Assembly (NCBI RefSeq): GCF_019236475.1 | Contig: NZ_JAFAIX010000002.1 | Span: 248,001-312,000, forward strand | Source: Chitinophaga sp. | GTDB lineage: Bacteria; Bacteroidota; Bacteroidia; Chitinophagales; Chitinophagaceae | Direction: 5' to 3' | DNA: 64,000 bases | Shown: positions 3,681-54,216 of the stretch, piece after piece | How the letters are laid out: each line of letters opens with the position of its first letter | Numbering within the stretch: position 1 is the stretch's first letter | The notes under the pieces: generated by a model | The model's input: only the letters and a program-made list of their open reading frames with translations | Told to the model about the DNA's origin: nothing | The model's database searches: none | Position numbers and translations under genes: made by a program

Positions 3681-3725
3681 CTGGACTACTTATTAATCAT
3701 TAACTGGACTACTTGCATAGTCCAG
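3681..3725. promoter_or_regulatory. Predicted MocR operator: two direct repeats plus one inverted copy
   Basis: CTGGACTACTT occurs at 3681-3691 and again at 3704-3714. The second copy also forms a perfect inverted repeat, CTGGACTA-N6-TAGTCCAG (3704-3725). Two direct copies and one inverted copy in the gap of a divergent MocR gene match the operator style known for MocR regulators. The first copy touches the MocR start codon, which would suit autoregulation. Confidence 0.7.
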
Positions 3726-3741
3726 ATCAAATATACATTTG
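3713..3741 (+). promoter_or_regulatory. Predicted Bacteroidota promoter of the decarboxylase/GNAT pair
   Basis: TACATTTG at 3734-3741 matches the -7 element TAnnTTTG. A TTG at 3713-3715 lies 18 bp upstream, close to the usual -33 spacing, and falls inside the spacer of the inverted MocR operator. The regulator and the sigma factor would therefore contact the same stretch. Confidence 0.55.
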
Positions 3742-3776
3742 TATCATTAAATCATAAAAGAAAGACGAACAATAGT

Positions 3777-4223
3777 ATGGAAGCATTAAGATTTAACCTG
3801 GCAGAAGTTTATCCAGAGGCCTATAAAGCCTTAGCAGCAGTAGAAGCGTTAAAAGCTAATTCCAAATTAACTCCTATTCAGAAAGAACTGATAAAGATTA
3901 GGGCTTCCCAGATCAACAAATGTGCTTTCTGTATCAATATGCATACAGCGGACGCTCGTAAATACGGCGAAACAGAAGCCAGGATTTATTTACTCAACGC
4001 CTGGAGAGAAGCGCAGGTATATACCCCCGAGGAACGCGCTATACTGGCGATGACAGAAGAAGTGACGGAAATCAGCAAGCATGGACTGAGGGAAGAAACC
4101 TATCAGGATGTAGTGAAACATTTCGGTATAGACGGAACGGCTCAAATTTTAATGATGATTATTGCCATCAATAATTGGAACAGGGTGGCAATTCCTCTTC
4201 ATTATCTGCCGGAGGTAAAATAA
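3777..4223 (+). CDS. Carboxymuconolactone decarboxylase family protein (AhpD-like)
   Basis: A 148-residue all-helical protein of the CMD/AhpD superfamily. The redox motif KCAFCINMH (Cys49, Cys52, His56) matches the AhpD-type CxxCxxxH centre, so a thiol peroxidase-like or alkylhydroperoxidase role is likelier than true decarboxylation. The frame is open further upstream, but the ATG at 3777 begins the conserved helix and lies just after the promoter and operator; an upstream start would run through the MocR gene. It is followed 6 bp later by a GNAT gene, so the two form an operon under the divergent MocR regulator. Confidence 0.88.
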   Translation: MEALRFNLAEVYPEAYKALAAVEALKANSKLTPIQKELIKIRASQINKCAFCINMHTADARKYGETEARIYLLNAWREAQVYTPEERAILAMTEEVTEISKHGLREETYQDVVKHFGIDGTAQILMMIIAINNWNRVAIPLHYLPEVK

Positions 4224-4229
4224 TCGTAT

Positions 4230-4664
4230 ATGCGTAAGGTTTATTATGCCGACTCAGATGAAGCCATCATCGGTTGCATTGACACCATCCTAGAATTGCG
4301 GCCAAAGCTGCAACGGGATAAAGTGCTTGGTCAAATAAAGGACATGCAAATGGATGATGGCTATATGTTGATTTATGCCATGGCGGACGATGATCACTCT
4401 AAAGTGGTCGCCATCGCAGGGTTTCGGCATCTCAACAAATTACTCTGCGGCAAACATATTTATATTGATGACCTGTCTACCCTACCGGAATATCGTGGTA
4501 AGGGCTACGGTTCCTTACTGTTAAATCATGTGAAAGAACTGGCTATCCGGCAAGGGTTGGGAAGTGTACGTTTGAGCTCTGGGTACATCAACAACGATGC
4601 ACACCGACTATACCTACAGCATGGGTATATTATGTCGGCCCATAATTTCATGCTGAAGCTCTAA
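4230..4664 (+). CDS. GNAT family N-acetyltransferase
   Basis: A 144-residue GNAT-fold enzyme that should transfer an acetyl group from acetyl-CoA to a small amine or amino group. The acetyl-CoA loop is clear as EYRGKGYGSLLL (about residues 90-101), preceded by the strand IYIDDLSTLP and followed by the C-terminal NNDAHRLYLQHGY motif. It starts 6 bp after the carboxymuconolactone decarboxylase gene and should be co-transcribed with it under MocR control. The substrate is unknown. Confidence 0.85.
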   Translation: MRKVYYADSDEAIIGCIDTILELRPKLQRDKVLGQIKDMQMDDGYMLIYAMADDDHSKVVAIAGFRHLNKLLCGKHIYIDDLSTLPEYRGKGYGSLLLNHVKELAIRQGLGSVRLSSGYINNDAHRLYLQHGYIMSAHNFMLKL

Positions 4665-4847
4665 CATTGATACATATAGATTGATACAGAATGAGTTGTG
4701 CATAGGTTCTACTTATGGGCAGCTCATTCCACTTTGTCGTAATTCGCCCTTTCCAGGTGACGCAAACCACCCCTTAAATTGACGTTTTCACACAGCATCG
4801 AAACAAGATGGTAAATGGATATTTGTAATCTGAAAATCCATTTTACT

Positions 4848-5591
4848 ATGCAAACGAAACACAAAGTAGTATCACCAGCAGAATGGGATCTTGCCCGCAA
4901 ATCCTTGCTGGTAAAAGAAAAGGAACTAACCCGCATGCGGGATCAGGTAGCCAAAGAAAGAATGGCATTACCCTGGGAGCATGTCAACAAAACCTACGAA
5001 TTCAATGGTGCACAGGGAAAAGAAACCCTCTCCGACTTATTCGACGGCCGCAGTCAGTTGATAATAGTGCATTTTATGATGGGGCCAGGTTGGGCGGAAG
5101 GATGTCCGGGATGTTCCTTTAATGCAGACAGTATTGATGGTTCTTTACCGCACCTGCTCAACCATGATGTGAGTCTGGTAGTGGTTTCCAGGGCGCCGTA
5201 TGAAGAAATTCAGCGTTTTCAGAAAAGGATGGAATGGAAATTCAAGTGGGTTTCCTCCCATGACAGTGATTTCAACTATGATTATCATGTATCCTTTACA
5301 CCGGAGGAATTGGATAAAGGAGAAGTCTATTATAACTATGCTAAGATACCCAACAAAGCATCAGAACTGCCAGGAATGAGTGCGTTCTACAAAGAGGAAG
5401 ATGGAGAAATTTATCATACCTATTCTGCCTATGCAAGAGGTACGGATATAATGGTAAATACCTACAATTACCTGGATATTGCTCCCTTGGGAAGGAATGA
5501 GGACGGGCCTCAGACCATGGATTGGATGAAACACCATGACAAGTATGTAGTGCAGCCAGTCGCTACGGGCAACGGCAATTGCTGTCACTAA
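4848..5591 (+). CDS. DUF899 family thioredoxin-fold protein
   Basis: A protein of about 247 residues matching the DUF899 family, which has a thioredoxin-like fold. Telltale segments are the N-terminal WDLARKSLLVKEKELTR, then HFMMGPGW with GCPGCSF (the region equivalent to a redox centre), VVSRAPYEEI, FKWVSSHDSDFNYD and the late YLDIAPLGRNED. No signal peptide is visible. The function of the family is unknown. The in-frame ATG at 4848 is chosen over one at 4815, because the conserved start of the family (…VVSPAEWDLAR) follows it directly. A small CPxC membrane protein gene begins 10 bp downstream. Confidence 0.82.
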   Translation: MQTKHKVVSPAEWDLARKSLLVKEKELTRMRDQVAKERMALPWEHVNKTYEFNGAQGKETLSDLFDGRSQLIIVHFMMGPGWAEGCPGCSFNADSIDGSLPHLLNHDVSLVVVSRAPYEEIQRFQKRMEWKFKWVSSHDSDFNYDYHVSFTPEELDKGEVYYNYAKIPNKASELPGMSAFYKEEDGEIYHTYSAYARGTDIMVNTYNYLDIAPLGRNEDGPQTMDWMKHHDKYVVQPVATGNGNCCH

Positions 5592-5601
5592 ATACCTTGC
5601 C

Positions 5602-5883
5602 ATGCAGCATTCTTGTAATTGCAACCGGGTGAGGAAAGTGCGCCGGCCGCTTATCCGGCGCCTCCTCCATTTCATTCGATGGGCCACACCAGGCGTGGTT
5701 CTGGCACTGATACCCAAGTGTCCTGTATGCCTCGCCGCCTATATAGCTTTGGCTACCGGTCTTGGTGTACCGATTACAACGGCCAGATACCTACGCTGGG
5801 GGCTTATCGTTACCTGCATTGCAGCGCTGCTGTATCTCTCCTTTCGGTATTTACAGTCCAGGCGCCGACGCAGTTACTCTTGA
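5602..5883 (+). CDS. Small membrane protein with a CPxC motif
   Basis: A 93-residue protein with a basic, cysteine-containing N-terminus (CNCNRVRKVRR) and two membrane segments (about 26-50 and 62-82). The first segment begins IPKCPVCLAAY. A cysteine pair at the mouth of a membrane helix recalls small metal-handling membrane proteins such as MerT and MerC, but I cannot assign it to a named family. It starts 10 bp after the DUF899 gene, so the two probably form an operon. Its last 33 bp overlap the end of the convergent heparinase gene. The overlap and the short length leave some doubt. Confidence 0.6.
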   Translation: MQHSCNCNRVRKVRRPLIRRLLHFIRWATPGVVLALIPKCPVCLAAYIALATGLGVPITTARYLRWGLIVTCIAALLYLSFRYLQSRRRRSYS

Positions 5884-7812
5884 CGGTGTAACCGTATAGG
5901 TATATTTCTCTTTCGCGGATGGCTTGATGGCTTTCAAGTGAATGCGGTAAATATTATCTCCCCATTTCTGCTTAATCCCTTCATCCTCCATTTTTGTCAA
6001 TGCCACCTTTTCCACGCTGGCATTGAGTTTAGCAGCAGGGTAAGTCACTTGGTAATCACGGCCTTCTCCGTGAATAAGCAGTACCCCTGGGGATACTATT
6101 TCCACGGGGAAACAGGTCATGAGGTATTGGGTGAGACTATCTGTTTTCGTTAGCACCACCTGGTCTTCAATCACCGCTTTCTGGTTTCTCTTCAACTGAA
6201 CCGTCCTGTTCCAACTGCTGATCCCTGCTTCTTTCGGATAGGCCTCCGCGATATTCAACTGCATTGTACTAGCGCCTGCATTATTGGTGCTGCTTACATT
6301 CGTTGCTTTAAATGCAGGGCCTGGCCTTTGCGTATATCCGTTAACGGTAGGCAGGTTATGATAATCGGAGCAGTTGAACCAGATGTCGTAACGCTTGTCG
6401 GAGAAGGTTCTGGCAGTGTAGGTACCACGTCCTACATCTATCAGTACTGGTAGCCCATCGTAATACACAATGAAATTTCCGACATCATTATGGTTATGGC
6501 TTTCATCATTGTTGCCTCCTTTCGCGGCCACATAAAAACCTTTGGTAACGCCGCCTTTATCACGAGCGATCATTACTTCCAGATCAGGCCACCAATTGTT
6601 TGCAGGCAATGGGAGTGATTTCTCTGCACGCTTGAATTCATCCTGCATAAACAAGGAGAAAAGATTACGGTAATACATATACGTTCCTTTCCAAGGATTA
6701 TGTTCGGTACGTACATAATACGCGCCGAAGCGCATCATATCTGGATCTTTTACATCTTTACCAAAGCGATAAATTAAAGCACCATTCATTCCCGGACGCG
6801 GGTCGGCGTCAGCAAAATCAATAAAATAATCTTCACTGATCTGTGCCTTATAAATGAACTGTGCCATATGTTTCACCTTTTCATCCGCCAATACATACTG
6901 GAAAGCATTGGCAGTGGCCAGGTTGAGCAGGCAGATATTATCATATAGTGAGGCAGCGGCTCCACTCCAGTATCCCGGGCCTTCATCGCAGCCACCATCC
7001 TGCGGATATGGGTTCAGGAACTGATCCAGTGTACCCAAGATTTTGCTGACAGTGGCGGCACGTTTTGCTTCATCGTGTTCCAGCAACAGCACTGAACATA
7101 ACCAGTTGGAGGAAATCCAAGGATTCCAGTTATTAGGTCGGCGCCCACTACCACTGGAGCCCATCCAACCATGATGCTTAGTCATGAGCGGTACAAAGAT
7201 CCTGCGATTGGTTTCGTCGTATATGCGTTTCCGTATTTGCGGCGAAACCGCGTCTAACTTATCACCCATAAAATAATCCACCCAGCCCAACAATTCTGCC
7301 GTTTCTGCGGAAAACAGCTCTACAAAAGGATTTGCAGCATCTGGCAGGCCGTTAATTTCCTTTGTGCGAGGCAGATGAGCAGATGCGCCCCAGAAAGATT
7401 CTTCACAAACAGACCATATCCCATTGACGATATCATCTGTAAAACGGCCTTTATCTTCATACACTTCCGCCATCATTAATGTGGCGAGTACATCTCTTTT
7501 CTTGTTGGCAATTTCCTGGTAATCCCTGCGGTTACCGGTTCTGACGATCAACAGCGAAGTGGTTGCCGGAATACCGGGCCATTCATAATGCAGGTAGCTT
7601 TCTGCCAATCGGATGGTCTTGGCTGCCAGTGCGGTATCCACATTCGTCCATACCTGACGGTTGCTACGAGCAGGGAATGGCTCCCAGCGATCCCGCGGAA
7701 TTAAACGCGTACGTAGTTCTTGCTCCGTAAACCGGCCACTCATCAGGTTTTGCGCCTGTGAGGCAACTACCGCAAAGAAGCAGCAGCCCAATAAAAACAG
7801 TTTCTTTTTCAT
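5851..7812 (-). CDS. Heparinase II/III family polysaccharide lyase
   Basis: Exported lyase (signal peptide about residues 1-20, ending SQAQ) that should cleave uronic-acid polysaccharides by beta-elimination in the periplasm. An N-terminal alpha/alpha-toroid (about 40-380) contains WMGSSGSGRRPNNWNPW; the C-terminal beta-sandwich (about 400-640) has the family-typical GGNNDESHNHNDVGNF with its histidines, then LIDVGRGTY. At 653 residues it is of normal length for a heparinase II-like enzyme. It is the last gene of the locus, 6 bp after the beta-helix lyase gene. The substrate (heparan-like, alginate or another uronan) cannot be read from sequence; no sulfatase is present, which argues for an unsulfated polymer. 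Confidence 0.85.
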   Translation of the reverse strand: MKKKLFLLGCCFFAVVASQAQNLMSGRFTEQELRTRLIPRDRWEPFPARSNRQVWTNVDTALAAKTIRLAESYLHYEWPGIPATTSLLIVRTGNRRDYQEIANKKRDVLATLMMAEVYEDKGRFTDDIVNGIWSVCEESFWGASAHLPRTKEINGLPDAANPFVELFSAETAELLGWVDYFMGDKLDAVSPQIRKRIYDETNRRIFVPLMTKHHGWMGSSGSGRRPNNWNPWISSNWLCSVLLLEHDEAKRAATVSKILGTLDQFLNPYPQDGGCDEGPGYWSGAAASLYDNICLLNLATANAFQYVLADEKVKHMAQFIYKAQISEDYFIDFADADPRPGMNGALIYRFGKDVKDPDMMRFGAYYVRTEHNPWKGTYMYYRNLFSLFMQDEFKRAEKSLPLPANNWWPDLEVMIARDKGGVTKGFYVAAKGGNNDESHNHNDVGNFIVYYDGLPVLIDVGRGTYTARTFSDKRYDIWFNCSDYHNLPTVNGYTQRPGPAFKATNVSSTNNAGASTMQLNIAEAYPKEAGISSWNRTVQLKRNQKAVIEDQVVLTKTDSLTQYLMTCFPVEIVSPGVLLIHGEGRDYQVTYPAAKLNASVEKVALTKMEDEGIKQKWGDNIYRIHLKAIKPSAKEKYTYTVTPSRVTASAPGL

Positions 7813-7818
7813 ACGTGA

Positions 7819-9852
7819 CTAGTAGGTATATTTTCGTTCAGTACTGATGTCTGTTTGCTGTGGGAGATGCCCGTTTAAGGAGAAGGTATTGTCTTTAAAC
7901 GTCCCGTTGGCAGTGGCGTAGGAAGCAATACCATAGCCACCATTGCATTGCAACACATTGTTTCTTACTTCTATATTTTTATTGGGTGCGTGTAAGCACG
8001 GAAAGATCATTCCACCTTTGTCATTCGCTTCTAACAGTGATCCCGTAATGGCTATATCGCTACAATTCAATGCCAGCAAGCCATACATCGCGTTACGCCC
8101 CATTTCACAATTTTCTAGTTTGATATTACTTGACTTATCCAGCACCAGTCCGCAGCCATAAGGAGCACCCACCATCCGACTACTATCTACACGTGCATCT
8201 GTGGCATGCGTGATATGTAGGTTATGCAGTAATCCTGCTCCTGGCACCACGCTGGAGCCATTTTCATTGAAATCACATCTTTTGATACAGATATGTTCCC
8301 CGCCGAAAATTTGTACACCGGCATAGGTGAAATTCTTTACCGTAATATATTCGAGAGAGATATTGCGGAACAACGTTGGCATTTCGGAACGGAAAATAAT
8401 TCCACCGCGACTCCCATTCGGTTTCCAAGACCGGCTGCTGTTGGGATCATTGCCATAATCCAGGATTGCCATGCCGTCTAGTACTAGGTTGCGGAGTACT
8501 ACATCATGCATATCATTGCTGGCATTGGTCATTACATCCCGATCGCCGGAAGCCGGATCTATGTGGAGAATCGTACCAGTACCTTCCCCCACCATCGTCA
8601 GGTTGCTGGGAATTTTTAGTGTAGCCGTTACCGTATAGACGCCTGATTTCAGGAGTAAAGTTTTGCCAGTACCGGCGGCTTTCTCCATAGCTTCTTGCAA
8701 ACTATCAGTAGGTGTAACCGTTATCACCTGACCGGAAACTTGGGGCTGAAAGCCTGTGCCAGCGCCGGCCATGTAATGCATTAGGGATATTTTAGGGAGG
8801 ATATTTTTTTGTACAGTCATAGGATTTCGCGTGTGTACCAGGATGCTCCTGGAAGCTGTGAGTCGGACGGAGTCTGCCACAGCGAATGTTGCAGGAAATT
8901 TTACTTTCATCGCGGCAGCATAGCTGACAGCAGGTTCATAGAAATCGCTGAAGCGCATAGCGCGATCGGAGATTTTACCATAGGCAGACACGTGCCTGCC
9001 TAGCAAGTAAGCGGCCGTATATTCATAGCCTTGGAGCAAGCGGTGATTGGCTACCTCAAAGAGATTAAGTCCTTGTGTGAGGGCAATATGCGCTGCACCG
9101 GCAAATTCTCCAATTCCTAATTGCACATGCCCCTGATCTCGGAGGGTTTCCTGGCATTGGCCTGTTGGATAGATATAGCGGCAAAGACTACCATTTACAG
9201 GTCCATGGTAGTAATGATCTACAGCGTTGTTAAATAACTGCCTATCGTCCAGGAATATTGCCATCGCCATTAACGTATGGATCATTGCCGCATCCCAATT
9301 ACCATTGGCCTGCGGGTAATAGTCTTTTATAACGGGGTAATAAATAGTGAGGAGCATGCGTTTAAAGGCATCCTGTTCGGCAGTAGGCCATTTAGCATCG
9401 GTATACTTCAGGATTTCAGCCGCATTGCAAAGCACATGACCTGTCCAGGCCACCATTAATTTGGCATCATTGTAATCGAAGTCCCACAAGTTTTCGGACC
9501 AGGCATGTAGGAGTTGCATGGCATTCGTCGCATATTGTTTTTTGCCGGTAATGTACCAGGCCACTGCATAGTCGTAGGCTAGTCCGGCACTTTTGCTGAG
9601 GTCTACCCCGCCAATATTCGGGCGGCCATAAGGGCCTCGCATCACATGTGCAAAAGGTTTGACTTCATAGGCTGTATCCAGATTGGTCATCATTCTGTCG
9701 AAGGCCCCTTTCCAAGGCTGCTTTCCCGCCAGGACCATGGATTTCATGTAAGCCAGGTCTTCGGACGACTGGTTAATACCTGGATGTTTGAAAGTAGACT
9801 GTCCCATCAGGAGTGCTGGGAACAAGAGTAGCAACACAACTAGTTTTTTCAT
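7819..9852 (-). CDS. Alginate lyase-like domain fused to a right-handed beta-helix
   Basis: A 677-residue exported protein (signal peptide about 1-17). Residues about 20-350 look like an alginate-lyase-family alpha/alpha domain, with the segments GRPNIGG, YAVAWYITGKKQYA, GNWDAAMIHTLMA and GQCQETLRDQGHVQLG. Residues about 375-677 form a parallel beta-helix with repeated N/D-rich turns such as LENCEMGRNAMYGLLALNCSDI, the fold of pectate-lyase-like and mannuronan-epimerase-like enzymes. The helix may be a second catalytic unit or a binding platform. The gene lies between a SusE-like lipoprotein gene and the heparinase gene, and is preceded by a hairpin and a strong ribosome site. Confidence 0.82.
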   Translation of the reverse strand: MKKLVVLLLLFPALLMGQSTFKHPGINQSSEDLAYMKSMVLAGKQPWKGAFDRMMTNLDTAYEVKPFAHVMRGPYGRPNIGGVDLSKSAGLAYDYAVAWYITGKKQYATNAMQLLHAWSENLWDFDYNDAKLMVAWTGHVLCNAAEILKYTDAKWPTAEQDAFKRMLLTIYYPVIKDYYPQANGNWDAAMIHTLMAMAIFLDDRQLFNNAVDHYYHGPVNGSLCRYIYPTGQCQETLRDQGHVQLGIGEFAGAAHIALTQGLNLFEVANHRLLQGYEYTAAYLLGRHVSAYGKISDRAMRFSDFYEPAVSYAAAMKVKFPATFAVADSVRLTASRSILVHTRNPMTVQKNILPKISLMHYMAGAGTGFQPQVSGQVITVTPTDSLQEAMEKAAGTGKTLLLKSGVYTVTATLKIPSNLTMVGEGTGTILHIDPASGDRDVMTNASNDMHDVVLRNLVLDGMAILDYGNDPNSSRSWKPNGSRGGIIFRSEMPTLFRNISLEYITVKNFTYAGVQIFGGEHICIKRCDFNENGSSVVPGAGLLHNLHITHATDARVDSSRMVGAPYGCGLVLDKSSNIKLENCEMGRNAMYGLLALNCSDIAITGSLLEANDKGGMIFPCLHAPNKNIEVRNNVLQCNGGYGIASYATANGTFKDNTFSLNGHLPQQTDISTERKYTY

Positions 9853-43889: not shown

Positions 43890-45020
43890 TCAGGCAGGCT
43901 GCAAATCATCCGCCAAACCGCAATTTTCCTTAATAATTTGATACGTTGGATAATCAATTAATCCCCTATCTCCTCCCTGGTAAAAGGTTTCAGGATCAGC
44001 GGGCGCCAGTGGCAACTGGTACCGTATTCTCTCCACCAAGTCGGGATTGGAGATGAAAGGTCGGCCAAAGGCAATGATATCTGCCAAGCCTTCTTGGAGT
44101 CGCGCTTCCGCAGTAGCGGGCGTATATCCACCTGCGAGGATAATCAGTTGATGGAATCGTTGACGAAGATCTTCTAGGTATGCGTGAGGAATGGGTGGCT
44201 GGCCATTTACAGACTGATCTGAGAGGTGAATATATAAGATACCCAGTTTATCTAATTCCTCCGCCAGGTATTGATGGGTAGCCAGTTCCTCTGGATAGGT
44301 GGGCAGATCATTCAATCCTGAAAACGGCGATAAACGCAGGCCAGTGTGTTCTTTCCCGATAGCTATTGCCACACCTTCCATAATTTCCATTAGGAACCTG
44401 CTTCTGTTGACGATACTTCCTCCGTATTTGTCGGTTCGTTGATTGGTAGCAGGATGTAGAAACTGGGCCGGCAAGAAGCCATGTGCCCCATGGATTTCCA
44501 CCCCATCAAAACCAGCTTCCATAGCGGCGATGGCGGCATCTACATGGGCTTGCACCATCGCGGCAGCCCCTGCTGTGGTCAGGGTATCAGGGACAGGCAA
44601 TGGTACATGGTTTCCACCAGGGATACCGACCATACCGGCTGCCGCTACATTAGAAGCACCAACAGTAGGCAAGCCCTGTTGATTGGCCGGATGCCCTATC
44701 CGCCCTGTATGGACGAGTTGTATGAAAATGGTACCTCCCTGCTGGTGGACTTCATCGGTAATCTGTTTCCAGACTTTTTGTTGGGCGGCGGAAAATATGC
44801 CTGGATTATGCTGATAGCCAACCCCATTAGGGGCCACGGCGGTATTTTCTACTATAATTAATCCAGCGCTGGCCCTTTGTCCATAATAGATACGCATATT
44901 ATCTGTAGGCATCGCGTCGCCGGTTGCTCTTCTTCTACTCATGGGCGCCATTGCAATCCTATTGCGGAAATGGTGACCACCTTTGGTCAATGGGGCGAGT
45001 AATTTTGCAGTAGTATTCAT
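43890..45020 (-). CDS. Old Yellow Enzyme family ene-reductase (NemA-like)
   Basis: An FMN-dependent TIM-barrel oxidoreductase of about 376 residues that reduces activated C=C bonds or nitro groups with NAD(P)H. Family marks are KLLAPLTKGGHHFRNRIAMAPM in the first 30 residues, GFDGVEIHGAHGFLPAQFLHP with NQRTDKYGG, LILAGGYTPATAEA and AFGRPFISNPDLVERI. The ATG at 45020 (MNTTAKLL) is preferred; a 45062 start would run into the divergent promoter. An AraC regulator gene is transcribed divergently 88 bp away and probably controls it. Confidence 0.92.
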   Translation of the reverse strand: MNTTAKLLAPLTKGGHHFRNRIAMAPMSRRRATGDAMPTDNMRIYYGQRASAGLIIVENTAVAPNGVGYQHNPGIFSAAQQKVWKQITDEVHQQGGTIFIQLVHTGRIGHPANQQGLPTVGASNVAAAGMVGIPGGNHVPLPVPDTLTTAGAAAMVQAHVDAAIAAMEAGFDGVEIHGAHGFLPAQFLHPATNQRTDKYGGSIVNRSRFLMEIMEGVAIAIGKEHTGLRLSPFSGLNDLPTYPEELATHQYLAEELDKLGILYIHLSDQSVNGQPPIPHAYLEDLRQRFHQLIILAGGYTPATAEARLQEGLADIIAFGRPFISNPDLVERIRYQLPLAPADPETFYQGGDRGLIDYPTYQIIKENCGLADDLQPA

Positions 45021-45108
45021 TGTTTCATCGTTTGTTGACACAAAGTTAGTTCCACCGAACACGGCAGAACAGTGATAAAAAAAGGTTTGTTTTGTACATT
45101 TACAGGTT

Positions 45109-45984
45109 ATGACACAAAAATCGTTGCATAGTCCATTTGAAGTAGGCGTTTCTGATCTGGAACACTGGAATGAAAGGCCACTGGTACATCATTTCTTTGA
45201 GATCGTACAGGTGATGGAAGGAAGCGGTATGCGTACTCTTAATCGTAATAAATACCCTTATACCAAGGGAAATATATTCCTTTATACCCCGCTGGACTGT
45301 CGCGGTTTTGAAAGTGAAACGCCCACACAACTGTGTTCTATCCGATTTTCGGAGGTATTTCTTGGGAGTAGTAAATCGGCGGCCGACAAAGAACGAACCT
45401 TACAATGGTTAAAGCAGTTGGAACATATATTCTTCCACCATAACCGTTTTCAGCATATACAGATCACACATGGGGGCGATTGTCGGATGATTGGAGCGTT
45501 TATTCGGCAGTTGGTAACAGAATATGAGCAACAACGGGATTACCATGAAGAGAATCTGCAACACCTTGTTACCTTAATTCTGAATATCCTAACGAGAAAT
45601 GTAACTGGCAGCAAACCTGCTACTGTAGCCACTATAGAAGAAGAACCATTAATCAACCGGATGCTGGTGCATATTCGTCAACATATTGGAGAGAGTGAGC
45701 AACTGAGGGTAGAGCATCTCGCCCAAACCTTTCATCTCTCTATTAATTATGTGGGAGAATATTTTAGAAAATTTACGGGAGAGAGTTTACAACAATATAT
45801 TGCACAGTACCGGAATAAGCTTGTCCAGCAACGATTAGCGCATAGTGCTATTACTATTGGTCAGATCGCCGAAGAACTTGGTTATACAGATGAGAGTCAT
45901 CTTAATCGCCAATTTAGAAAACATAATGGTGTGAGTCCGCTTATGTACAGAAAACAGTTTTTATCTGATAGCCAACAAGCATAA
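45109..45984 (+). CDS. AraC-family transcriptional regulator
   Basis: A 291-residue regulator with an N-terminal cupin-like sensor domain (about 15-160) and a C-terminal double helix-turn-helix (about 185-288): LRVEHLAQTFHLSINYVGEYFRKFTGESLQQYI, then IGQIAEELGYTDESHLNRQFRKHNGVSPLMYR. It is divergent from the ene-reductase gene, so it most likely regulates it in response to an electrophile or another small ligand. It is followed by the long hairpin at 46051-46099. Confidence 0.92.
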   Translation: MTQKSLHSPFEVGVSDLEHWNERPLVHHFFEIVQVMEGSGMRTLNRNKYPYTKGNIFLYTPLDCRGFESETPTQLCSIRFSEVFLGSSKSAADKERTLQWLKQLEHIFFHHNRFQHIQITHGGDCRMIGAFIRQLVTEYEQQRDYHEENLQHLVTLILNILTRNVTGSKPATVATIEEEPLINRMLVHIRQHIGESEQLRVEHLAQTFHLSINYVGEYFRKFTGESLQQYIAQYRNKLVQQRLAHSAITIGQIAEELGYTDESHLNRQFRKHNGVSPLMYRKQFLSDSQQA

Positions 45985-46360
45985 AAAGTAATTAGAATCC
46001 TTTCTAGTAGCTGATTAAAATACAATATAACGTAGAAGCATATACGAAAAAAAACACGGTGTAAAATATACGTTTGTACATTATTTACCACCGTGTTTTC
46101 ACCCTATTTTTGTGAATGATCCGTTAACGTCTTTTAGCGATAAAAATAAACCACCTCTCAAAACAAGCCCCCACAAAGCATTTCATCGGAAATGTTTTTT
46201 TCACCCGAAGAAGTATTTAACAAAATTTTTAAAACGGTGATGGTGGTCATCAAACAGGAGTCGTAAAGGCTCTAAGTTTGTAATCGTAAACCGCATGCAA
46301 ATCTTGCGAAACAATTTAAAGAATTTGTTTTTTTACCTCAGAACTTTAAACCCAAATAAA
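45985..46360. promoter_or_regulatory. Intergenic region: AraC gene terminator and promoter of the pilus-like cluster
   Basis: The left part holds an 11-bp perfect inverted repeat (AAAACACGGTG at 46051-46061, CACCGTGTTTT at 46089-46099) with extended pairing, a likely terminator. TAAGTTTG at 46273-46280 matches the -7 element; a start about 7 bp beyond it would leave a leader of about 75 nt before the pilin-like gene. No good -33 element was seen. Confidence 0.5.
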
Positions 46361-46897
46361 ATGAAAGCATTGTTCTTATCGGCTGCAATTGCCATGGCTT
46401 CCATGAGCTGCTTCGCTCAGGCTTCAGATCACGCTACAATTCGCGTTGGTTTGTGTTTAACAAACATTATTGACATCGACCCTCCATGCAGTACATTGGT
46501 AGGTAACTTTGATGACGAACATGATTATGATCATGGTGTTATCTTGAAAAACACTAAGGGTGATCATGATGTAGACTACAAAGTTAGTTCTAACCGTGAC
46601 TTCAACGTTACCATCAAAGCGGGATCCGCTAATTTCTCTTATCTGGGCACAGGTACAGACGACAACGTAATGCCTTGCAGCGTTCTGAAATATCACCTGC
46701 TCTCCAACAATACTGGTGGTACCAATGCAACTCCATCATTCTGGAATGCACTGACAGTTGCTCCTGCTCCTGTAATCAATGGTGGTGAAGAAGGTCGTAA
46801 CAAACGCTTCTCACTGCAATTCAAAGCAGATCCAGGATGGAACTACACTGGTGGTCTGTATGGACTGGACGTAATCGTAACAGCAACACAGTTATAA
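46361..46897 (+). CDS. Secreted pilin-like protein, first gene of a putative surface-fibre cluster
   Basis: A protein of about 178 residues with a signal peptide (about 1-19, MKALFLSAAIAMASMSCFAQ). The mature part is about 158 residues, all beta, Gly/Asn/Asp-rich, with three cysteines (VGLCLTN, PPCSTLV, MPCSVL). It ends in GGLYGLDVIVTATQL, resembling the last strand of pilins and spore-coat-U-like proteins (…GxYxxxIxVTA…). The ATG at 46361 gives the signal peptide; an upstream in-frame start at 46295 would put a polar tail before it. It is followed by a terminator-like hairpin and the barrel gene. A major fibre subunit is my inference, not a family match. Confidence 0.75.
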   Translation: MKALFLSAAIAMASMSCFAQASDHATIRVGLCLTNIIDIDPPCSTLVGNFDDEHDYDHGVILKNTKGDHDVDYKVSSNRDFNVTIKAGSANFSYLGTGTDDNVMPCSVLKYHLLSNNTGGTNATPSFWNALTVAPAPVINGGEEGRNKRFSLQFKADPGWNYTGGLYGLDVIVTATQL

Positions 46898-46911
46898 TTT
46901 CCGTCTCTATC

Positions 46912-46950
46912 ACAGGTAAGCCTTTCCAGGCGAGAGGCTTGCCTGTTTTG
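46912..46950 (+). terminator. Attenuator-like hairpin after the pilin-like gene
   Basis: ACAGGTAAGCCT (46912-46923) pairs with AGGCTTGCCTGT (46935-46946; one G-T pair) and is followed by TTTTG and more T. It lies 15 bp after the pilin-like stop codon and 36 bp before the barrel gene. Partial termination here would give far more pilin-like protein than barrel. Confidence 0.75.
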
Positions 46951-46981
46951 TATTTTCAATGTACCCCAACCCCTCGAGATC

Positions 46982-49732
46982 ATGAAATCTCAGTTGATCC
47001 GGCTATTGCTCATTGCACTTGTCATTAGCAATATCTGCTGCGTAAAAATATTTGCGCAGTCCGGTGAATCTTTGATGGTACAGCACACTGATTCGCTGGC
47101 AGCCAATAAAGACGCTCGATTTCTGTACAATAACTTTACGATAACAAATAAACTGAGCACCGAAAAGGAGTTTACCCTAACTTTACAGGTGCCGGAGTCT
47201 TGGAAATTAATTGCCCCGGTAAAAGATCTAACACATAAGCTTGGCCCCAATTCAAAGGTGACAATACCTGTCATCGTCATGAAGGAACAACGCACCTCAG
47301 CTAAATGGCTCCCCGTAATTGTGAATATTCGGGAAACTTCAGGCATATTTCATTCGTACAAATTCTACATTAAAGCGGATCCAATCAGCGCGTTCCGCGT
47401 GACACCTATTACCCAAATCGTACAGCTCCGTGGTACGGAGAGAGAGGTATCTATCACGACCAGGGTTAAAAACAGTGGTACGATTGAAGGCAATTATAAC
47501 ACTGAATATAAAGACAATAACCTCGGAATAAACCACAACGTAAAAATGAAACTTGCACCAGGTATGGACACTGTATTCACATATAAGTTCAGACTGAATG
47601 AAGTTCAATGGAACCGCCTGAAAACGGAACCCATAGCGGTTACTGTTGAAGAAGCCTCTGGTGAAAGCTTCATGAATATAGTGAATCTTGAAAAGGTACA
47701 GAGTTTACTCAAAGAGAATATATCTCCTTATCAAACTTTCCCTTTTTCCGTAGAAACTGGCTATATCAATTGGGATGGTCAAGCTACCTATTATGTTGGA
47801 TTTGCCGGAGATATAGCATGGTCAGATAAAATGCTCTCTTTCTACTATCGAACCAAGCAGTATGGCATGGGTACCCGACTGGAGAAAAACGTATTTGGCG
47901 TTACTTATAATACGCCGAAGTGGAATCTGTATGGCGGAAACATGATAGACAGCAAATACTTCTACACTTTTGGTAATGGCGGAAGGGTTACCTATAAATT
48001 CACCCCTGATGACTTTATTTCTTTTGCTGTTGCCATACACAGACAAAATATCCCCTACTACGTCAATGATAATGCTACTATTACTGCACAGTATCACATC
48101 GGAAAGGTAAAGCTACTACAGGCCGTAGCTGCCAATCATGATACAGTTAACAAGTATAATAGTTTGTTATTTAACAATGAAGCGGTTATAATCAAGAATA
48201 ATAACATTACCCTGCAATTAAATGCAGGCGTAGGTAAGAACTTCAGCACTATTTATATACCAACAGCACCACCTGATAAGATTGGGTATGCTGGCGGATA
48301 TCTCTTCAGCCTTTCCAAGAAAAAATTCAATCTGTTCTCTCAGATGCAGTACAATTCAGACGATTATCCAGGACTGTATAGAGGACTACAGATTCAATCG
48401 CATTCCTTTACTTACAAAATGGGTAAAAATGGAATTGGCGCTTTTTATCAACAAAACCGCTCCCCTGTCAACATCCTCCGGGATACCGTATTCAATTCAG
48501 CGGCGCTTAGCTATAATGTCACCAAGTATGGTCTCAGTTATAGTCATAGTCTGCCCGGCGGAGCCTTTTCCATCAGTGGCGGAAAACTGGAACAAACCGC
48601 CCAATTTATAACCTCTTTGCCCAAATACAATTTTGGGGAGTTGGCATACCAGCAGAAATTTAATAAAACATCAGTCATTTATTTCAACAGCCTCAGCGGT
48701 TATAACCCGTCTTATGGCACTAATAATAAATCTGTTTTCATTACAAATACATTATTGTCAGCAAACTATAAATGGTTCGGAGTAAAAGGGTATTATATCC
48801 AAATTCCCTTATTCGACTCGGCAACAACTAAGAACTTCGCGAGTTATCAGCAGTCTATTCTGGCCGGACCGTATTTTAATTTCGTTTTGTTCAGGTGGCT
48901 TAAAACAAGTCTTTACTATAACTGGTCTAAAACAATATCTGACAGTATTACATACCACATCATAGGTGCGGATCTATTATATAGTAATCCTCATAACAAC
49001 TTGGATGTAATGGTTAACGCATCTATTCCGCTGGAGAACAATGCAAATCCAGCGCTGAATGGGGTTAATACCCGGTATTTCAGTGTAATTATTACGAAGA
49101 AATTCAATGTGCCTATTGTAACACACAGAAAATATTTTACGCTCAACCTTTTACCGTTTAATGATGTTAATGGGAATGGCATCATGGATCCTGGAGAGCA
49201 CACTTTACAAAATCTGGAGATCAGCATTAATGACATTCCGTTTATAACTGATGCAACCGGTAAAGTTACATACAAGAATATTGAACCGGGAACCTATAAG
49301 ATAGAATTTCGGGCCATTAATACCATCAAAGGGCTTATTCCCGCAGCAGGCCTTTCACAGGTCATCCCAGTTAGCAAAGACATGACAGTTCAACTGCCTT
49401 TCAAGAAAAGCAGTGTTATCTCAGGACAATTAAAAATCCTGTCAGATTCTATAGCCCATACTCGTGTACGGCTGGAAAACATAAAGGTAACCGCAACAGA
49501 TAGTGCAGGGGTAAGTTATAGTACACTTACGGATATGACTGGTGCATATTTTATCAATGTACCTGCTGGTAAGTATACTGTTTCATTAAACCCAGATGCA
49601 TTTATAGATAAGGTAAGACCCAAAGCCATGGCTCATCCTGTAGACCTGAGTCATGAGATTGAAGGAACAGCAAATTTTGAGATTGTCGATAAAAGCCGGG
49701 AAATTAAATTCTTTAAACCAAAAACAAATTGA
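46982..49732 (+). CDS. Large outer-membrane barrel protein with Ig-like and regulatory-like domains (usher-like)
   Basis: A 916-residue exported protein (signal peptide about 1-26, ending IFAQ). Residues about 30-235 form two Ig-like domains of the NEW3/COG1470 style (FTITNKLSTEKEFTLTLQVP, KVTIPVIVMKEQ). Residues about 250-735 are rich in alternating Tyr/Phe/Asn strands separated by short turns (FSVETGYINWDGQATYYVGF, YTFGNGGRVTYKFTPDDFISFAVAI), the pattern of a beta-barrel. The C-terminus has an SdrB-like domain (FNDVNGNGIMDPGEHTLQNL) and a carboxypeptidase-regulatory-like domain (about 830-900). Order and position after a pilin-like gene suggest an usher-like secretion pore; I see no motif of the FimD or EcpC families. 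Confidence 0.72.
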   Translation: MKSQLIRLLLIALVISNICCVKIFAQSGESLMVQHTDSLAANKDARFLYNNFTITNKLSTEKEFTLTLQVPESWKLIAPVKDLTHKLGPNSKVTIPVIVMKEQRTSAKWLPVIVNIRETSGIFHSYKFYIKADPISAFRVTPITQIVQLRGTEREVSITTRVKNSGTIEGNYNTEYKDNNLGINHNVKMKLAPGMDTVFTYKFRLNEVQWNRLKTEPIAVTVEEASGESFMNIVNLEKVQSLLKENISPYQTFPFSVETGYINWDGQATYYVGFAGDIAWSDKMLSFYYRTKQYGMGTRLEKNVFGVTYNTPKWNLYGGNMIDSKYFYTFGNGGRVTYKFTPDDFISFAVAIHRQNIPYYVNDNATITAQYHIGKVKLLQAVAANHDTVNKYNSLLFNNEAVIIKNNNITLQLNAGVGKNFSTIYIPTAPPDKIGYAGGYLFSLSKKKFNLFSQMQYNSDDYPGLYRGLQIQSHSFTYKMGKNGIGAFYQQNRSPVNILRDTVFNSAALSYNVTKYGLSYSHSLPGGAFSISGGKLEQTAQFITSLPKYNFGELAYQQKFNKTSVIYFNSLSGYNPSYGTNNKSVFITNTLLSANYKWFGVKGYYIQIPLFDSATTKNFASYQQSILAGPYFNFVLFRWLKTSLYYNWSKTISDSITYHIIGADLLYSNPHNNLDVMVNASIPLENNANPALNGVNTRYFSVIITKKFNVPIVTHRKYFTLNLLPFNDVNGNGIMDPGEHTLQNLEISINDIPFITDATGKVTYKNIEPGTYKIEFRAINTIKGLIPAAGLSQVIPVSKDMTVQLPFKKSSVISGQLKILSDSIAHTRVRLENIKVTATDSAGVSYSTLTDMTGAYFINVPAGKYTVSLNPDAFIDKVRPKAMAHPVDLSHEIEGTANFEIVDKSREIKFFKPKTN

Positions 49733-49906
49733 TTACCAAGTACACCTCAGGAACTTAAACAACTAACCCCCAAGTCCGTGCTATACTAGACGTAGCCATT
49801 TTTTGGACCCCAATCGAATCTCCCAAAAATGATGACCATATCCTCTTGAATTGTTGATAAACCTCTTCAACAGTAATATTACGTACGCCCTTAACTATTC
49901 TAATTT

Positions 49907-50632
49907 ATGCTGATGATGAAAAAAGTAATGATCGCTGAAGAAGTGGAACCGGGACCCACTGTTAATCCCGTAACAACAATCAATGAGTTGCTTAAACTGC
50001 AAATTGATGATGGTAATCTTTTACATCTGAAAAAGAAACGCATCATTTACAGCGAAGGCAAATCTGCCACCTGCATCTTCTATGTCCTCAAAGGCAAGGT
50101 GAAAACCAGCAAATGGAATGAAGATGGAAAGGAACTGATAACAGGTCTCTTTAATGAAGGAGATTTTCTCGGATTCCAAGCACTCATGGATGGAGGCCGA
50201 CACCGGGAAACGGCCGAAGTCATGGAAGAAGCCGACCTCGTATTTATATCGCGGGAAGACCTTCATTACCTTTTCCAGTGTAACAATTCATTTCTGTTAG
50301 ATATCATCAAAATTCTAACCCGCAATATTGCGGACAAACAAGAACAAATGCTACGCATGGCGTATAGCTCCCTGCGAAAAAAAGTGGGTGAAGCATTACT
50401 CCTTACGTATGAAAAGTATAACCCTTCCGGTTCAATTGATTTCAGTTTAAATATCAGTCGTTGTAACCTCGCCGCACTTGCCGGCGTTGCAAAAGAATCA
50501 TTAATCCGCACACTCAGCGACATGCGGGATGAACACATCATAGACATCCAGGAAGGAAAAATAATTATACTCGATCATCACAAATTGGAACGCATCATTT
50601 ATCATGAAGACATGAGAAACGGAAACGCTTAA
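49907..50632 (+). CDS. Crp/Fnr-family transcriptional regulator of the fibre cluster
   Basis: A 241-residue regulator. Residues about 28-145 are a cyclic-nucleotide-binding-like beta-roll (KRIIYSEGKSATCIFYVLKGKVKTSKWNEDGKELI, FNEGDFLGFQALMD); about 165-235 is a Crp-type winged helix (ISRCNLAALAGVAKESLIRTLSDMRDEHII). No cysteine cluster for an iron-sulfur centre is present, so it is not Fnr-like in sensing; the ligand is unknown. It sits inside the cluster, 174 bp after the barrel gene and 15 bp before the chaperone-like gene. The first four residues include several possible starts. Confidence 0.88.
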   Translation: MLMMKKVMIAEEVEPGPTVNPVTTINELLKLQIDDGNLLHLKKKRIIYSEGKSATCIFYVLKGKVKTSKWNEDGKELITGLFNEGDFLGFQALMDGGRHRETAEVMEEADLVFISREDLHYLFQCNNSFLLDIIKILTRNIADKQEQMLRMAYSSLRKKVGEALLLTYEKYNPSGSIDFSLNISRCNLAALAGVAKESLIRTLSDMRDEHIIDIQEGKIIILDHHKLERIIYHEDMRNGNA

Positions 50633-50647
50633 CTAAATTCAATCACC

Positions 50648-51571
50648 ATGAAAGGATTGCTGCTGCTATTTATCAGCTTTCAATTGATGGCCCAGGGACA
50701 AGTACTACCAAACGGACAGGTACAAGGGCAAGGGAAACCTCAAACCCCTACTCCCGCTCCCACTGTAAATTCTACTGCCCCTACAGCCCAGCCCCCGGTT
50801 CAGACGCAAAACGCGGACCCAGGCACCGATAAAAGATCAGGCCTGTTATTCAGACCGTCCACTATTGACTTTCAGCTCAATTCAGGACAAACAGGTATAG
50901 GAAAGGTGGTTATTACCAACTTTCTGAGTACTAAAAAGCAGTTTCGGATCTACGTAGATGATTTTGTGCGGGACTCCGCTGGTGGCCATACCTATTCCGC
51001 AGGTGGCTCCATTCCGCAAAGCTGCGCTAAATGGATACAACTGGATAGAACCTTTTTCGAATTGGATACTGGTCAGACGATAGAAATACCTTTTAAAGTA
51101 GTAGCACCTCCGGATTCGCTTTCAAATATTGAAATGAAATGGGCGATGCTTTTCTTCGAGACAACACAGGAACAAATTGTAGAAGATGCAAAAGGCGTAA
51201 AAACCACTGTAATGGGAAGATTGCGCATAGGCGTACATATATATCAGACTTCCCCCAGTATTACAGATAAGGATATAACCATCGAAGGATTTAAACTTCC
51301 TACAGACAGCAACAGGACATGTGTAATTACGTGCAGAAATACAGGAAAAACGCAACTACTAGTCAAGAGCTATATCGAATTATCTAATACCGCCACCAAT
51401 GAACGAACGAAACTAAACTTCCCGCTATTCCCCATGTTCCCTGGCCAGAAACGGGTACTCCCGTTCCAATTGCCGAACAACCTGCCGAAGGGAAAATATT
51501 CGCTGATAGGTGTGATAGACGCCGGCGGGGATGTTCCGATTGCAGCAGTGCAGGAGAACATTGATATATAG
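50648..51571 (+). CDS. Periplasmic two-domain Ig-like protein, PapD-like chaperone candidate
   Basis: A 307-residue exported protein (signal peptide about 1-15), then a Pro/Gln/Thr-rich linker (about 18-60). A first beta-sandwich (about 66-200) opens LLFRPSTIDFQLNSGQTGIGKVVITN and ends GRLRIGVHIYQTSP. This is the place where pilus chaperones have the conserved basic residue and R-x-K-x-x-Y strand. A second sandwich (about 205-307) follows. The layout is that of PapD-type chaperones and of DUF916-like proteins. It lies 15 bp after the Crp/Fnr gene and should be co-transcribed with it. A chaperone role is inferred from fold pattern and neighbours. Confidence 0.7.
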   Translation: MKGLLLLFISFQLMAQGQVLPNGQVQGQGKPQTPTPAPTVNSTAPTAQPPVQTQNADPGTDKRSGLLFRPSTIDFQLNSGQTGIGKVVITNFLSTKKQFRIYVDDFVRDSAGGHTYSAGGSIPQSCAKWIQLDRTFFELDTGQTIEIPFKVVAPPDSLSNIEMKWAMLFFETTQEQIVEDAKGVKTTVMGRLRIGVHIYQTSPSITDKDITIEGFKLPTDSNRTCVITCRNTGKTQLLVKSYIELSNTATNERTKLNFPLFPMFPGQKRVLPFQLPNNLPKGKYSLIGVIDAGGDVPIAAVQENIDI

Positions 51572-52542: not shown

Positions 52543-54216
52543 ATGTTGAAATTGATCCGGAAAATAATATTTGCCGGGGTGCCACCGGATGCAGGAAATA
52601 AGTATAACAGTGTGATTGTAATCAACGCGCTGGCTTTCCTCACCGCGGTATTTCTGGCGATCATTGGAACCTATTTTTACTTTTTGACCAACAGCATTTT
52701 CCTTATTACTGGGGTAATAATCGAATGTTGTTGCTTTGCTGTAGTGATCTATTTTAATCACAAAAAATTTTATGAGTTTGGCACCTTGGGTACGGTATTG
52801 ATTCATACCGTGTTTGCCTGTTATTTCGGCGCCCTACTAGGCCCCGCCATGCCAGAAGCCTTGATCACGGCTTTTCTACTAACCTTTTTGATTGGCTCCT
52901 CTTTCACCGTATACAAACGTTGGGGAATACGTATTTTCAGTCTGGTCATGGCAGTACTGTTGTTTGCGCTCATCGCATTGAATAACCGCTATCATTTCGT
53001 AGAGCCTATTGCACTCAGTCTCGATACTACCAATAATATCAAAGTAATCTGTTGGGTAGCAATGTTGGCATTGATAGGATTCAGTACCTGGCTCCTGATC
53101 AACCAGAACGACCGCTCCTTAAAAGAAGTACAGCGATTGAATGAAGAGAAGGCCATTTATCATGCAGAGATCAACCATGAATTACGGAATACGGTACACA
53201 CCATCTCTACCTTTGCAGACTTAATCGCCCATAATCACCTTACACCGGAAGAACAGGCGCATATTGTTAGTTGCTTGAAAAGTTCGTCTGAACAGGCATT
53301 GGATATTATCAACAATGGATTATTACTGACGAAAATCGAAGCTGGTAAAAATGATAAGGTAGTGGAAAGTGTGGTAGACATCACGCCATTCCTGCAAGAT
53401 AAGGTCAATATATTCAAAGTGCTGGGAGAACTGGAAGGCAAACAAATCTTGCTGCACACGGATATCCACTCGGCTATTACCACAGACAGGCTTGCGCTGA
53501 CTAAAATCGTCAATAACCTGTTGACCAATGCCATCAAACATAGCGGATCAGGAACTATCATTAAGGTAGATGCTGTCCAACAAAATAATGAACTGTTGCT
53601 GAAAGTGAGCAATCCCGGGCATATTGACCAATCCCGATTGGCCCAGTTGTTTCTGCCGTTCGACTCCGACAATCATTCCCGATACGATAGTACAGGACTT
53701 GGTTTGTATATCACCCATTATTTGGTGACCAGGATGCACGGCACTATAAATGTCACTTCCGAAAATGATACCATTACCTTTACCGTACAACTGCCAGTAA
53801 AGGAGGCCCAGCAAACCATTACGACAGAGGAGCGCAAAGAGGATATTGATTTATCAAGATTCAATATACTCGTGATTGAAGATGATTTGATGAACCAGGT
53901 AGCACTTTCTCGTACCCTCAGAGATAAACATGCAGTTGTTACCGTTACAGGTAGCGCGAATGAAGGCATCCACCTCATCCGAGAAAACAAGCCAGACCTG
54001 ATTATTACGGATCTCAACATGCCAGATATGCTAGGTACAGATCTCATTTCTTATCTCCGACAAGACGATACCCTTCGACATATACCTGTTATCCTTATTA
54101 CCGGTCAAATGATAGAACTGCCTGCCAACGGCTATTCCAATGGTATTGTAAGATTACACAAACCCTTTAAAGTAAAAGAACTCTATCAGGCAGTGCAAAC
54201 CCAACTGCGCTGCTAA
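52543..54216 (+). CDS. Hybrid sensor histidine kinase / response regulator
   Basis: A 557-residue membrane sensor. Six or so membrane segments fill residues about 22-190 without a large periplasmic loop, so it probably senses something within the membrane. A dimerisation domain has the phospho-acceptor His212 in AEINHELRNT; the ATP-binding domain has the N box NNLLTNAIKHS (about 324-334) and a G box DSTGLGLYI (382-390). A C-terminal receiver domain (about 438-557) has Asp490 in IITDLNMPDM and Lys540. No DNA-binding output or separate response regulator gene is adjacent. The start codon at 52543 is the first ATG in frame. Confidence 0.93.
   Translation: MLKLIRKIIFAGVPPDAGNKYNSVIVINALAFLTAVFLAIIGTYFYFLTNSIFLITGVIIECCCFAVVIYFNHKKFYEFGTLGTVLIHTVFACYFGALLGPAMPEALITAFLLTFLIGSSFTVYKRWGIRIFSLVMAVLLFALIALNNRYHFVEPIALSLDTTNNIKVICWVAMLALIGFSTWLLINQNDRSLKEVQRLNEEKAIYHAEINHELRNTVHTISTFADLIAHNHLTPEEQAHIVSCLKSSSEQALDIINNGLLLTKIEAGKNDKVVESVVDITPFLQDKVNIFKVLGELEGKQILLHTDIHSAITTDRLALTKIVNNLLTNAIKHSGSGTIIKVDAVQQNNELLLKVSNPGHIDQSRLAQLFLPFDSDNHSRYDSTGLGLYITHYLVTRMHGTINVTSENDTITFTVQLPVKEAQQTITTEERKEDIDLSRFNILVIEDDLMNQVALSRTLRDKHAVVTVTGSANEGIHLIRENKPDLIITDLNMPDMLGTDLISYLRQDDTLRHIPVILITGQMIELPANGYSNGIVRLHKPFKVKELYQAVQTQLRC

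Follow-up and report, generated by a model that had tools for sequence, protein, structure and literature searches.

The DNA analysed here, called the window throughout, is a stretch of 64,000 nucleotides from Chitinophaga sp. (Bacteroidota; contig NZ_JAFAIX010000002.1, positions 248,001 to 312,000), and it belongs to a genome assembly of 6.48 Mb in 14 contigs whose closest protein matches are to Chitinophaga. Four open reading frames (ORFs) at 46295-46897, 46982-49732, 49907-50632 and 50648-51571, all on the + strand, are present as an earlier note on this DNA had described them. In gene order (window 46361-51571), the set comprises a pilin-like subunit, read as secreted and all-beta, then a hairpin, a large outer-membrane barrel protein, a regulator of the Crp/Fnr type and a periplasmic protein with two immunoglobulin (Ig)-like domains. 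The proposal that these are a Bacteroidota counterpart of the chaperone-usher system is supported by the predicted folds, the matches to FimD and to pilus chaperones and the conserved gene set, and it is very probable that the system builds a surface fibre, presumably by donor-strand exchange, and represents a new branch. The features are as follows.

46361..46897, + strand: pilin-like subunit of 178 amino acids, with a signal peptide, an N-terminal strand of alternating hydrophobic and polar residues and a fixed C-terminal strand ending in TATQL
46912..46946, + strand: hairpin and T run 3' of the subunit gene, a probable leaky terminator
46982..49732, + strand: usher-like outer-membrane protein of 916 amino acids (predicted model, domain matches)
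47072..47713, + strand: its N-terminal tandem Ig-like module (residues 31-244)
47735..49114, + strand: its predicted transmembrane beta-barrel (residues 252-711; 26 strands counted, no plug-size insertion)
49136..49690, + strand: its C-terminal tandem beta-sandwich domains (residues 719-903; SdrD_B, CarboxypepD_reg)
49907..50632, + strand: Crp/Fnr-type regulator (family match)
50648..51571, + strand: periplasmic chaperone-like protein of 307 amino acids, with two Ig domains and a WxLIP/PapD-like fold
51164..51247, + strand: within the latter, a low-confidence loop (residues 173-187) and a conserved donor-strand-like stretch (residues 188-200), from model and alignment

When the window proteins were scanned with Pfam and NCBIfam, the third ORF was recognised as a Crp/Fnr regulator and the C end of the 916-amino-acid protein matched SdrD_B and CarboxypepD_reg; the subunit and the chaperone stayed without a family name, and no usher or PapD family was among the matches listed for the window proteins, so that the earlier caution about recognising these families was correct by family models. 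Single-sequence searches of the Protein Data Bank (PDB) gave nothing for the barrel or the chaperone and, for the subunit, a single match at chance level; profiles were required. Alignments A4 and A5 hold 34 and 56 sequences, respectively, and the subunit alignment A6 holds the window subunit and 50 of at least 88 listed subunits (51 in total). The subunit ORF stands as noted, except that its start is most likely at 46361, not 46295, giving 178 amino acids, because the copy in the database and a number of close relatives have the same length. Its signal peptide is MKALFLSAAIAMASMSCFAQ.

The model of the periplasmic protein contains two Ig-like domains (residues 66-200 and 210-306) in a PapD-type arrangement, the FimC/PapD layout of pilus chaperones. 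In Foldseek and VIA comparisons, the best match was an enterococcal WxLIP, followed by both domains of the pilus chaperones CfaA, CsuC and FimC, and the two-Ig periplasmic protein predicted earlier thus matches true pilus chaperones across both domains; the lists also include unrelated Ig proteins (Cep192, RbmA and transglutaminase). A low-confidence loop (residues 173-192) precedes a strand (193-200) in the model, and the best-conserved stretch of the whole protein, which follows the loop, is a hydrophobic strand located like a chaperone donor strand: positions 188, 194, 196 and 198 are hydrophobic in 56 of 56 sequences and position 192 in 55, but not position 190. A section of PMC4654587 describes the subunit C-terminus as anchored by an Arg in domain 1 and, in non-classical chaperones, by an Arg and a Tyr in domain 2, and calls a proline of strand D1 invariant across the superfamily. 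Candidate cleft residues, taken from the alignment, are K/R164 (49/56), R269 (54/56) and Y284 (56/56); among the aligned prolines, P265 and P276 of domain 2 are invariant and P70 and P154 nearly so. One chaperone relative also matched FimA-like_C weakly (E-value = 0.022).

The rank of WxLIP raises another explanation, a fibre-less surface complex like that of WxL, in which the two-Ig protein would hold the subunit at the cell surface as WxLIP holds WxL in Gram-positive bacteria and the barrel would be only an exit or anchor. WxLIP is the best match by fold, by profile (E-value = 1.2e-5 for the chaperone profile against a solved WxLIP) and by Pfam, in which 20 of 29 relatives match WxLIP_PGBD at E-values up to 1 (best 6.8e-7; the window protein has no match), and the window locus has a single subunit gene. 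However, the window protein has no C-terminal membrane helix (it ends with a strand at 299-306 of 307 residues), no WxL-domain family is among the matches listed for the 51 subunits, and the usher-like barrel is co-conserved. Many other loci, moreover, have several subunit paralogues, and in 22 loci one of these has a shorter N end; relatives have been deposited as 16-chain assemblies. We regard such a complex as unlikely.

The predicted model of the second protein (pLDDT 83.7, pTM 0.57), together with the domain matches at its C end, bears out the 916-residue outer-membrane barrel with Ig-like and regulatory-like ends that had been claimed. Counting the elements listed for the model, we find 26 strands at residues 252-711, and the predicted barrel has domains at both its N and C ends, as usher barrels have. 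FimD ushers are at the top of the Foldseek list, with a same-order alignment over 822 columns and low TM-scores, and the VIA match 9fy9_D covers model residues 253-902. Of the pore and plug expected of an usher, a large barrel is thus predicted and FimD heads the list; the plug part failed because no plug-sized insertion is seen in the model. The N-terminal module (46982-47713, residues 1-244) matched the chaperone in hhalign at 93% with signal peptides and at 63% without them, and because the match weakened in this way, it is set aside as a firm chaperone relative and its kinship is kept as possible. In the same comparison, the chaperone and the C-terminal domains of the barrel protein gave 3%, and its N-terminal and C-terminal domains 47%.

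Several results weigh against a chaperone-usher-like system. The genome contains no match to Usher (PF00577) or PapD_N (PF00345), the E. coli control being positive for each, and no Usher match is listed for three barrels at E-values up to 10. The longest gap between barrel strands is 19 residues, with no insertion of plug size (in a prediction, not a structure), and by VIA MtrB fits the barrel better and ordinary porins equally well (a tie). Only one subunit gene is present at the window locus, and the T run is absent after the hairpin stem in four of seven other Chitinophaga loci (L006-L009). The lack of usher and PapD signatures among the matches listed for the window proteins, the VIA ranking and the absent plug also favor an independent origin, in which a barrel of Bacteroidota joined Ig proteins of the WxLIP type and the pair converged on the chaperone-usher principle, and so does the N-terminal module, a tandem Ig weakly like the chaperone itself. 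This origin, which is compatible with the chaperone-usher-like reading, is possible if somewhat doubtful, with the same-order FimD match and the pilus-chaperone match across both domains speaking against it, as do the one relative that reaches PapD_N (E-value = 0.0025, under the cut-off) and the four of 72 relatives that JGI names PapD. A further point against it is the weak match of one of the 51 subunits to SEF14_adhesin (E-value = 0.002), SEF14 being a chaperone-usher fimbria. The barrel could also be an ordinary outer-membrane transporter or an MtrB-like electron-conduit barrel with unrelated neighbours; however, no cytochrome was found in the eight window proteins scanned, for which reason an electron conduit was set aside, and all 11 genomes that match the barrel strongly also carry the chaperone gene. 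We hold this reading to be very improbable.

As the proposal requires, the genes are conserved together elsewhere, in both locus and phylum scans. One scan gave 51 named related loci, of which 49 have subunit genes (up to five), 31 have a barrel within about 10 kb and 30 have both. Subunits are present in all 38 loci longer than 15 kb and a barrel in 27 of them, and ten of the 11 long loci without a nearby barrel have one elsewhere in the genome (E-value = 1.8e-218 or better); G540 (1.9 Mb) is the sole long-locus genome without a barrel match. These counts are not independent, because closely similar pairs (L019/L020 and L022/L023) are included. In 395 genomes of the phylum, strong matches coincide in 11 of 12 chaperone genomes and 11 of 11 barrel genomes, by cut-offs (1e-40 and 1e-30) chosen after the tables were seen and with no more than 6 and 2 candidates scored in any genome among the matches listed; G460 has a strong chaperone match and no barrel match. 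At an E-value of 1e-5, 49 of the 395 have the chaperone, 45 have the barrel and 17 have the two together, many weak barrel matches being to the C-terminal domain only. In a same-family sample, the chaperone was present in 25 of 147 genomes and absent from 122, and the system is therefore patchy.

The same genome carries a second set (L064, G000:C10:55000-74900, at 2331-8792), with a 999-amino-acid barrel, a 178-amino-acid subunit, a chaperone, a 462-amino-acid multi-domain subunit (two or three subunit-like domains) and a GNAT acetyltransferase-like gene (5379-5966). Three contigs named Azovibrio, Sphingomonadales and Williamsia (L023, L031 and L035) also carry this Bacteroidota system; mis-binned or mislabelled assemblies are likely, because the subunits of L023 are nearly identical to those of L022.

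The C-terminus of the subunits is fixed, with Gly at -14 in 92, Tyr at -12 in 102 and Thr at -5 in 110 of 116 subunits (all distinct sequences, being those of 128 matches that have 141-229 residues); classical pilins follow a rule of Gly at -14. The subunit adjacent to the chaperone is about 13 residues shorter at its N end, before the shared anchor, in 22 of the 51 loci, a comparison covering the 112 of 116 subunits in which the anchor was present and a signal cleavage could be guessed. Among these 22 short subunits, 18 stand at 34-44 and four at 58-77, where the guessed cleavage looks wrong (e.g. L022, L023, L036 and L041). In L034 and L053, the chaperone-adjacent gene encodes a tandem of two subunit domains. 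Because the first subunit of a strand-exchange fibre can do without a donor strand and could have an additional domain, such short or, in a few loci, two-domain subunits may be tips. A profile search found no tip-like partner of the window subunit in the window, and elsewhere the genome has only the second set; a fibre of a single subunit kind is the simplest reading for the window locus. Among other subunits, a subunit-like protein of L029 (10947-11645) has a long Gly/Asn/His low-complexity insertion mid-protein, shorter Gly/Asn-rich stretches occur in L021 (10927-11379) and L032 (10960-11487), and several Chitinophaga subunits (L006-L009) show additional cysteines as well as N-terminal tails, rich in Pro and Ser, ahead of the first strand.

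The subunits of related gene sets also resemble cryo-EM fibres of uncertain origin. The profile of the 51 subunits matches TLP-2 (E-value = 3.5e-8) and TLP-1 (7.9e-8), which are PDB entries 9ikk and 9ikj, respectively, with 16 chains each; TLP we take to be a pond-water filament sample. The TLP-2 stretch was matched in one of the 395 phylum genomes and then, within the family to which that genome belongs, in nine of 245, the best match per genome showing 36-40% identity, and at this identity none of the matched genomes is that of the TLP source organism. Judged by such matches, our claim is limited to the class of the source, not the organism. In each of the three loci that were read (L067, L094 and L095), the genes for a barrel, a chaperone and two subunits are neighbours. 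In the part of PMC12967142 that bears on this, the pond-water filaments of Wang et al. are described as not conclusively identified, and TLP is not named.

The hairpin between the subunit and barrel genes (46912-46946), which had been noted earlier, was confirmed as 15 pairs followed by a T run, and only one of 200 shuffles folded as well. Spacers were compared in the window and 22 other loci. The stem is retained in all seven other Chitinophaga loci, with compensated changes in two of the 15 pairs and one pair lost in two of eight sequences. Different strong hairpins occupy the same place in L025, L028, L033, L036 and L043 and lie within gaps of about 390 bases in L029 and L032; no hairpin is present in the spacers of L011, L037, L049 and L053, and in L041 the two genes leave no gap. 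The window hairpin is probably a leaky terminator, placed behind what would be the most abundant subunit, that would keep subunit mRNA above barrel mRNA. Terminator-like sites numbered 11 in a scan (6.3 expected), and Rfam gave no match in the window at gathering scores and none around the hairpin at E-values up to 0.1. A promoter scan found 17 sites against 18.5 expected, and nothing is therefore claimed on promoters.

The Crp/Fnr gene is present and correctly named, but it does not belong to the conserved set: among the 51 loci, only the seven Chitinophaga loci L003-L009 have it between barrel and chaperone, and it was therefore ruled out as a core component. L027 has an additional Crp/Fnr gene adjoining the chaperone. 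The set is flanked upstream by an AraC-type regulator and, by eye, an old yellow enzyme-like gene (window 43890-45984) and downstream by a hybrid histidine kinase (52543-54216), and C. dinghuensis (L003) keeps the order of these flanking genes.

In short, the reading as a chaperone-usher-like system is based, by computation, on the gene set, the predicted folds, their conservation, the donor-like strand, the fixed C-terminus, the tip-like length class elsewhere and the multi-chain relatives. From these we infer how it may work. Signal peptides, as read from sequence, would take the subunits to the periplasm, where the hydrophobic strand of the chaperone (residues 188-198) would complete an incomplete Ig-like subunit and the chaperone cleft would hold the fixed subunit C-terminus. 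Pairs of chaperone and subunit would be handed to the barrel, which has an Ig-like module at each end; by donor-strand exchange, the chaperone strand would give way to the N-terminal strand of the next subunit to arrive, and the chain would extend outward through the barrel pore. The short or two-domain chaperone-adjacent subunit of other loci would form the fibre tip, and the hairpin would hold subunit output above barrel output.

A wider proposal, which we hold almost as readily as its contrary, is that this is a third, Bacteroidota-wide chaperone-usher kind that unites Gram-negative pili, WxL/WxLIP complexes and TLP filaments in one strand-donation superfamily, its usher being plug-less with its own tandem-Ig, chaperone-like N-terminal module. 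Apart from this wider proposal, with a conserved chaperone-usher-like system in Bacteroidota the known range of the pathway would come to include this phylum, environmental filaments of uncertain origin would gain a genetic source class, and pilus chaperones would be linked with the WxLIP proteins of Gram-positive bacteria.

To our knowledge, Bacteroidota are known for type V pili, not for chaperone-usher pili, and a literature search found no Bacteroidota system of such type described; subscription papers and preprints were beyond its reach, and an earlier account is possible. FimA/Mfa1 type V pili are surface fibres of Bacteroidota, assembled from lipoproteins in a protease-driven manner. 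The present set differs in its chaperone and usher-like barrel, and since the family scans gave no type V family among the matches listed for the subunits, type V membership was set aside, in line with the separateness proposed earlier. The account of chaperone-usher branches in PMC4654587 (2015) places all three of them in Proteobacteria, Cyanobacteria and Deinococcus-Thermus, and Bacteroidota are not listed in it. The likeness to chaperone-usher pili, of the alternative and archaic kinds (CfaA/EcpB, Csu), lies in the two-Ig chaperone with its loop and hydrophobic donor-type strand, the large outer-membrane barrel flanked by a domain region on either side and, in other loci, the short subunit paralogues with a fixed C-terminus and a tip-like shorter subunit. 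However, this set shows no Usher/PapD family match, has a WxLIP-type chaperone and a tandem-Ig N-terminal module on the barrel, and belongs to a different phylum; barrels of those pili normally have 24 strands and an inserted plug, whereas 26 strands and no plug insertion were counted in the present model.

With the WxL/WxLIP complexes of Gram-positive bacteria, the set shares a chaperone-like protein nearest to WxLIP by profile and fold, and PMC10599100 presents complexes modelled with AlphaFold2, where WxL has a gap that is filled by a strand from a WxLIP hairpin. It differs from them in lacking a membrane helix in the window protein and WxL among the families listed for the partner subunits, and in the added outer-membrane barrel. 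From TLP-1 and TLP-2, it differs in that their chains are longer (236-237 residues) and show 36-40% identity to the nearest genes found, but the subunit profile matches both of them, and those nearest genes sit in clusters of this kind.
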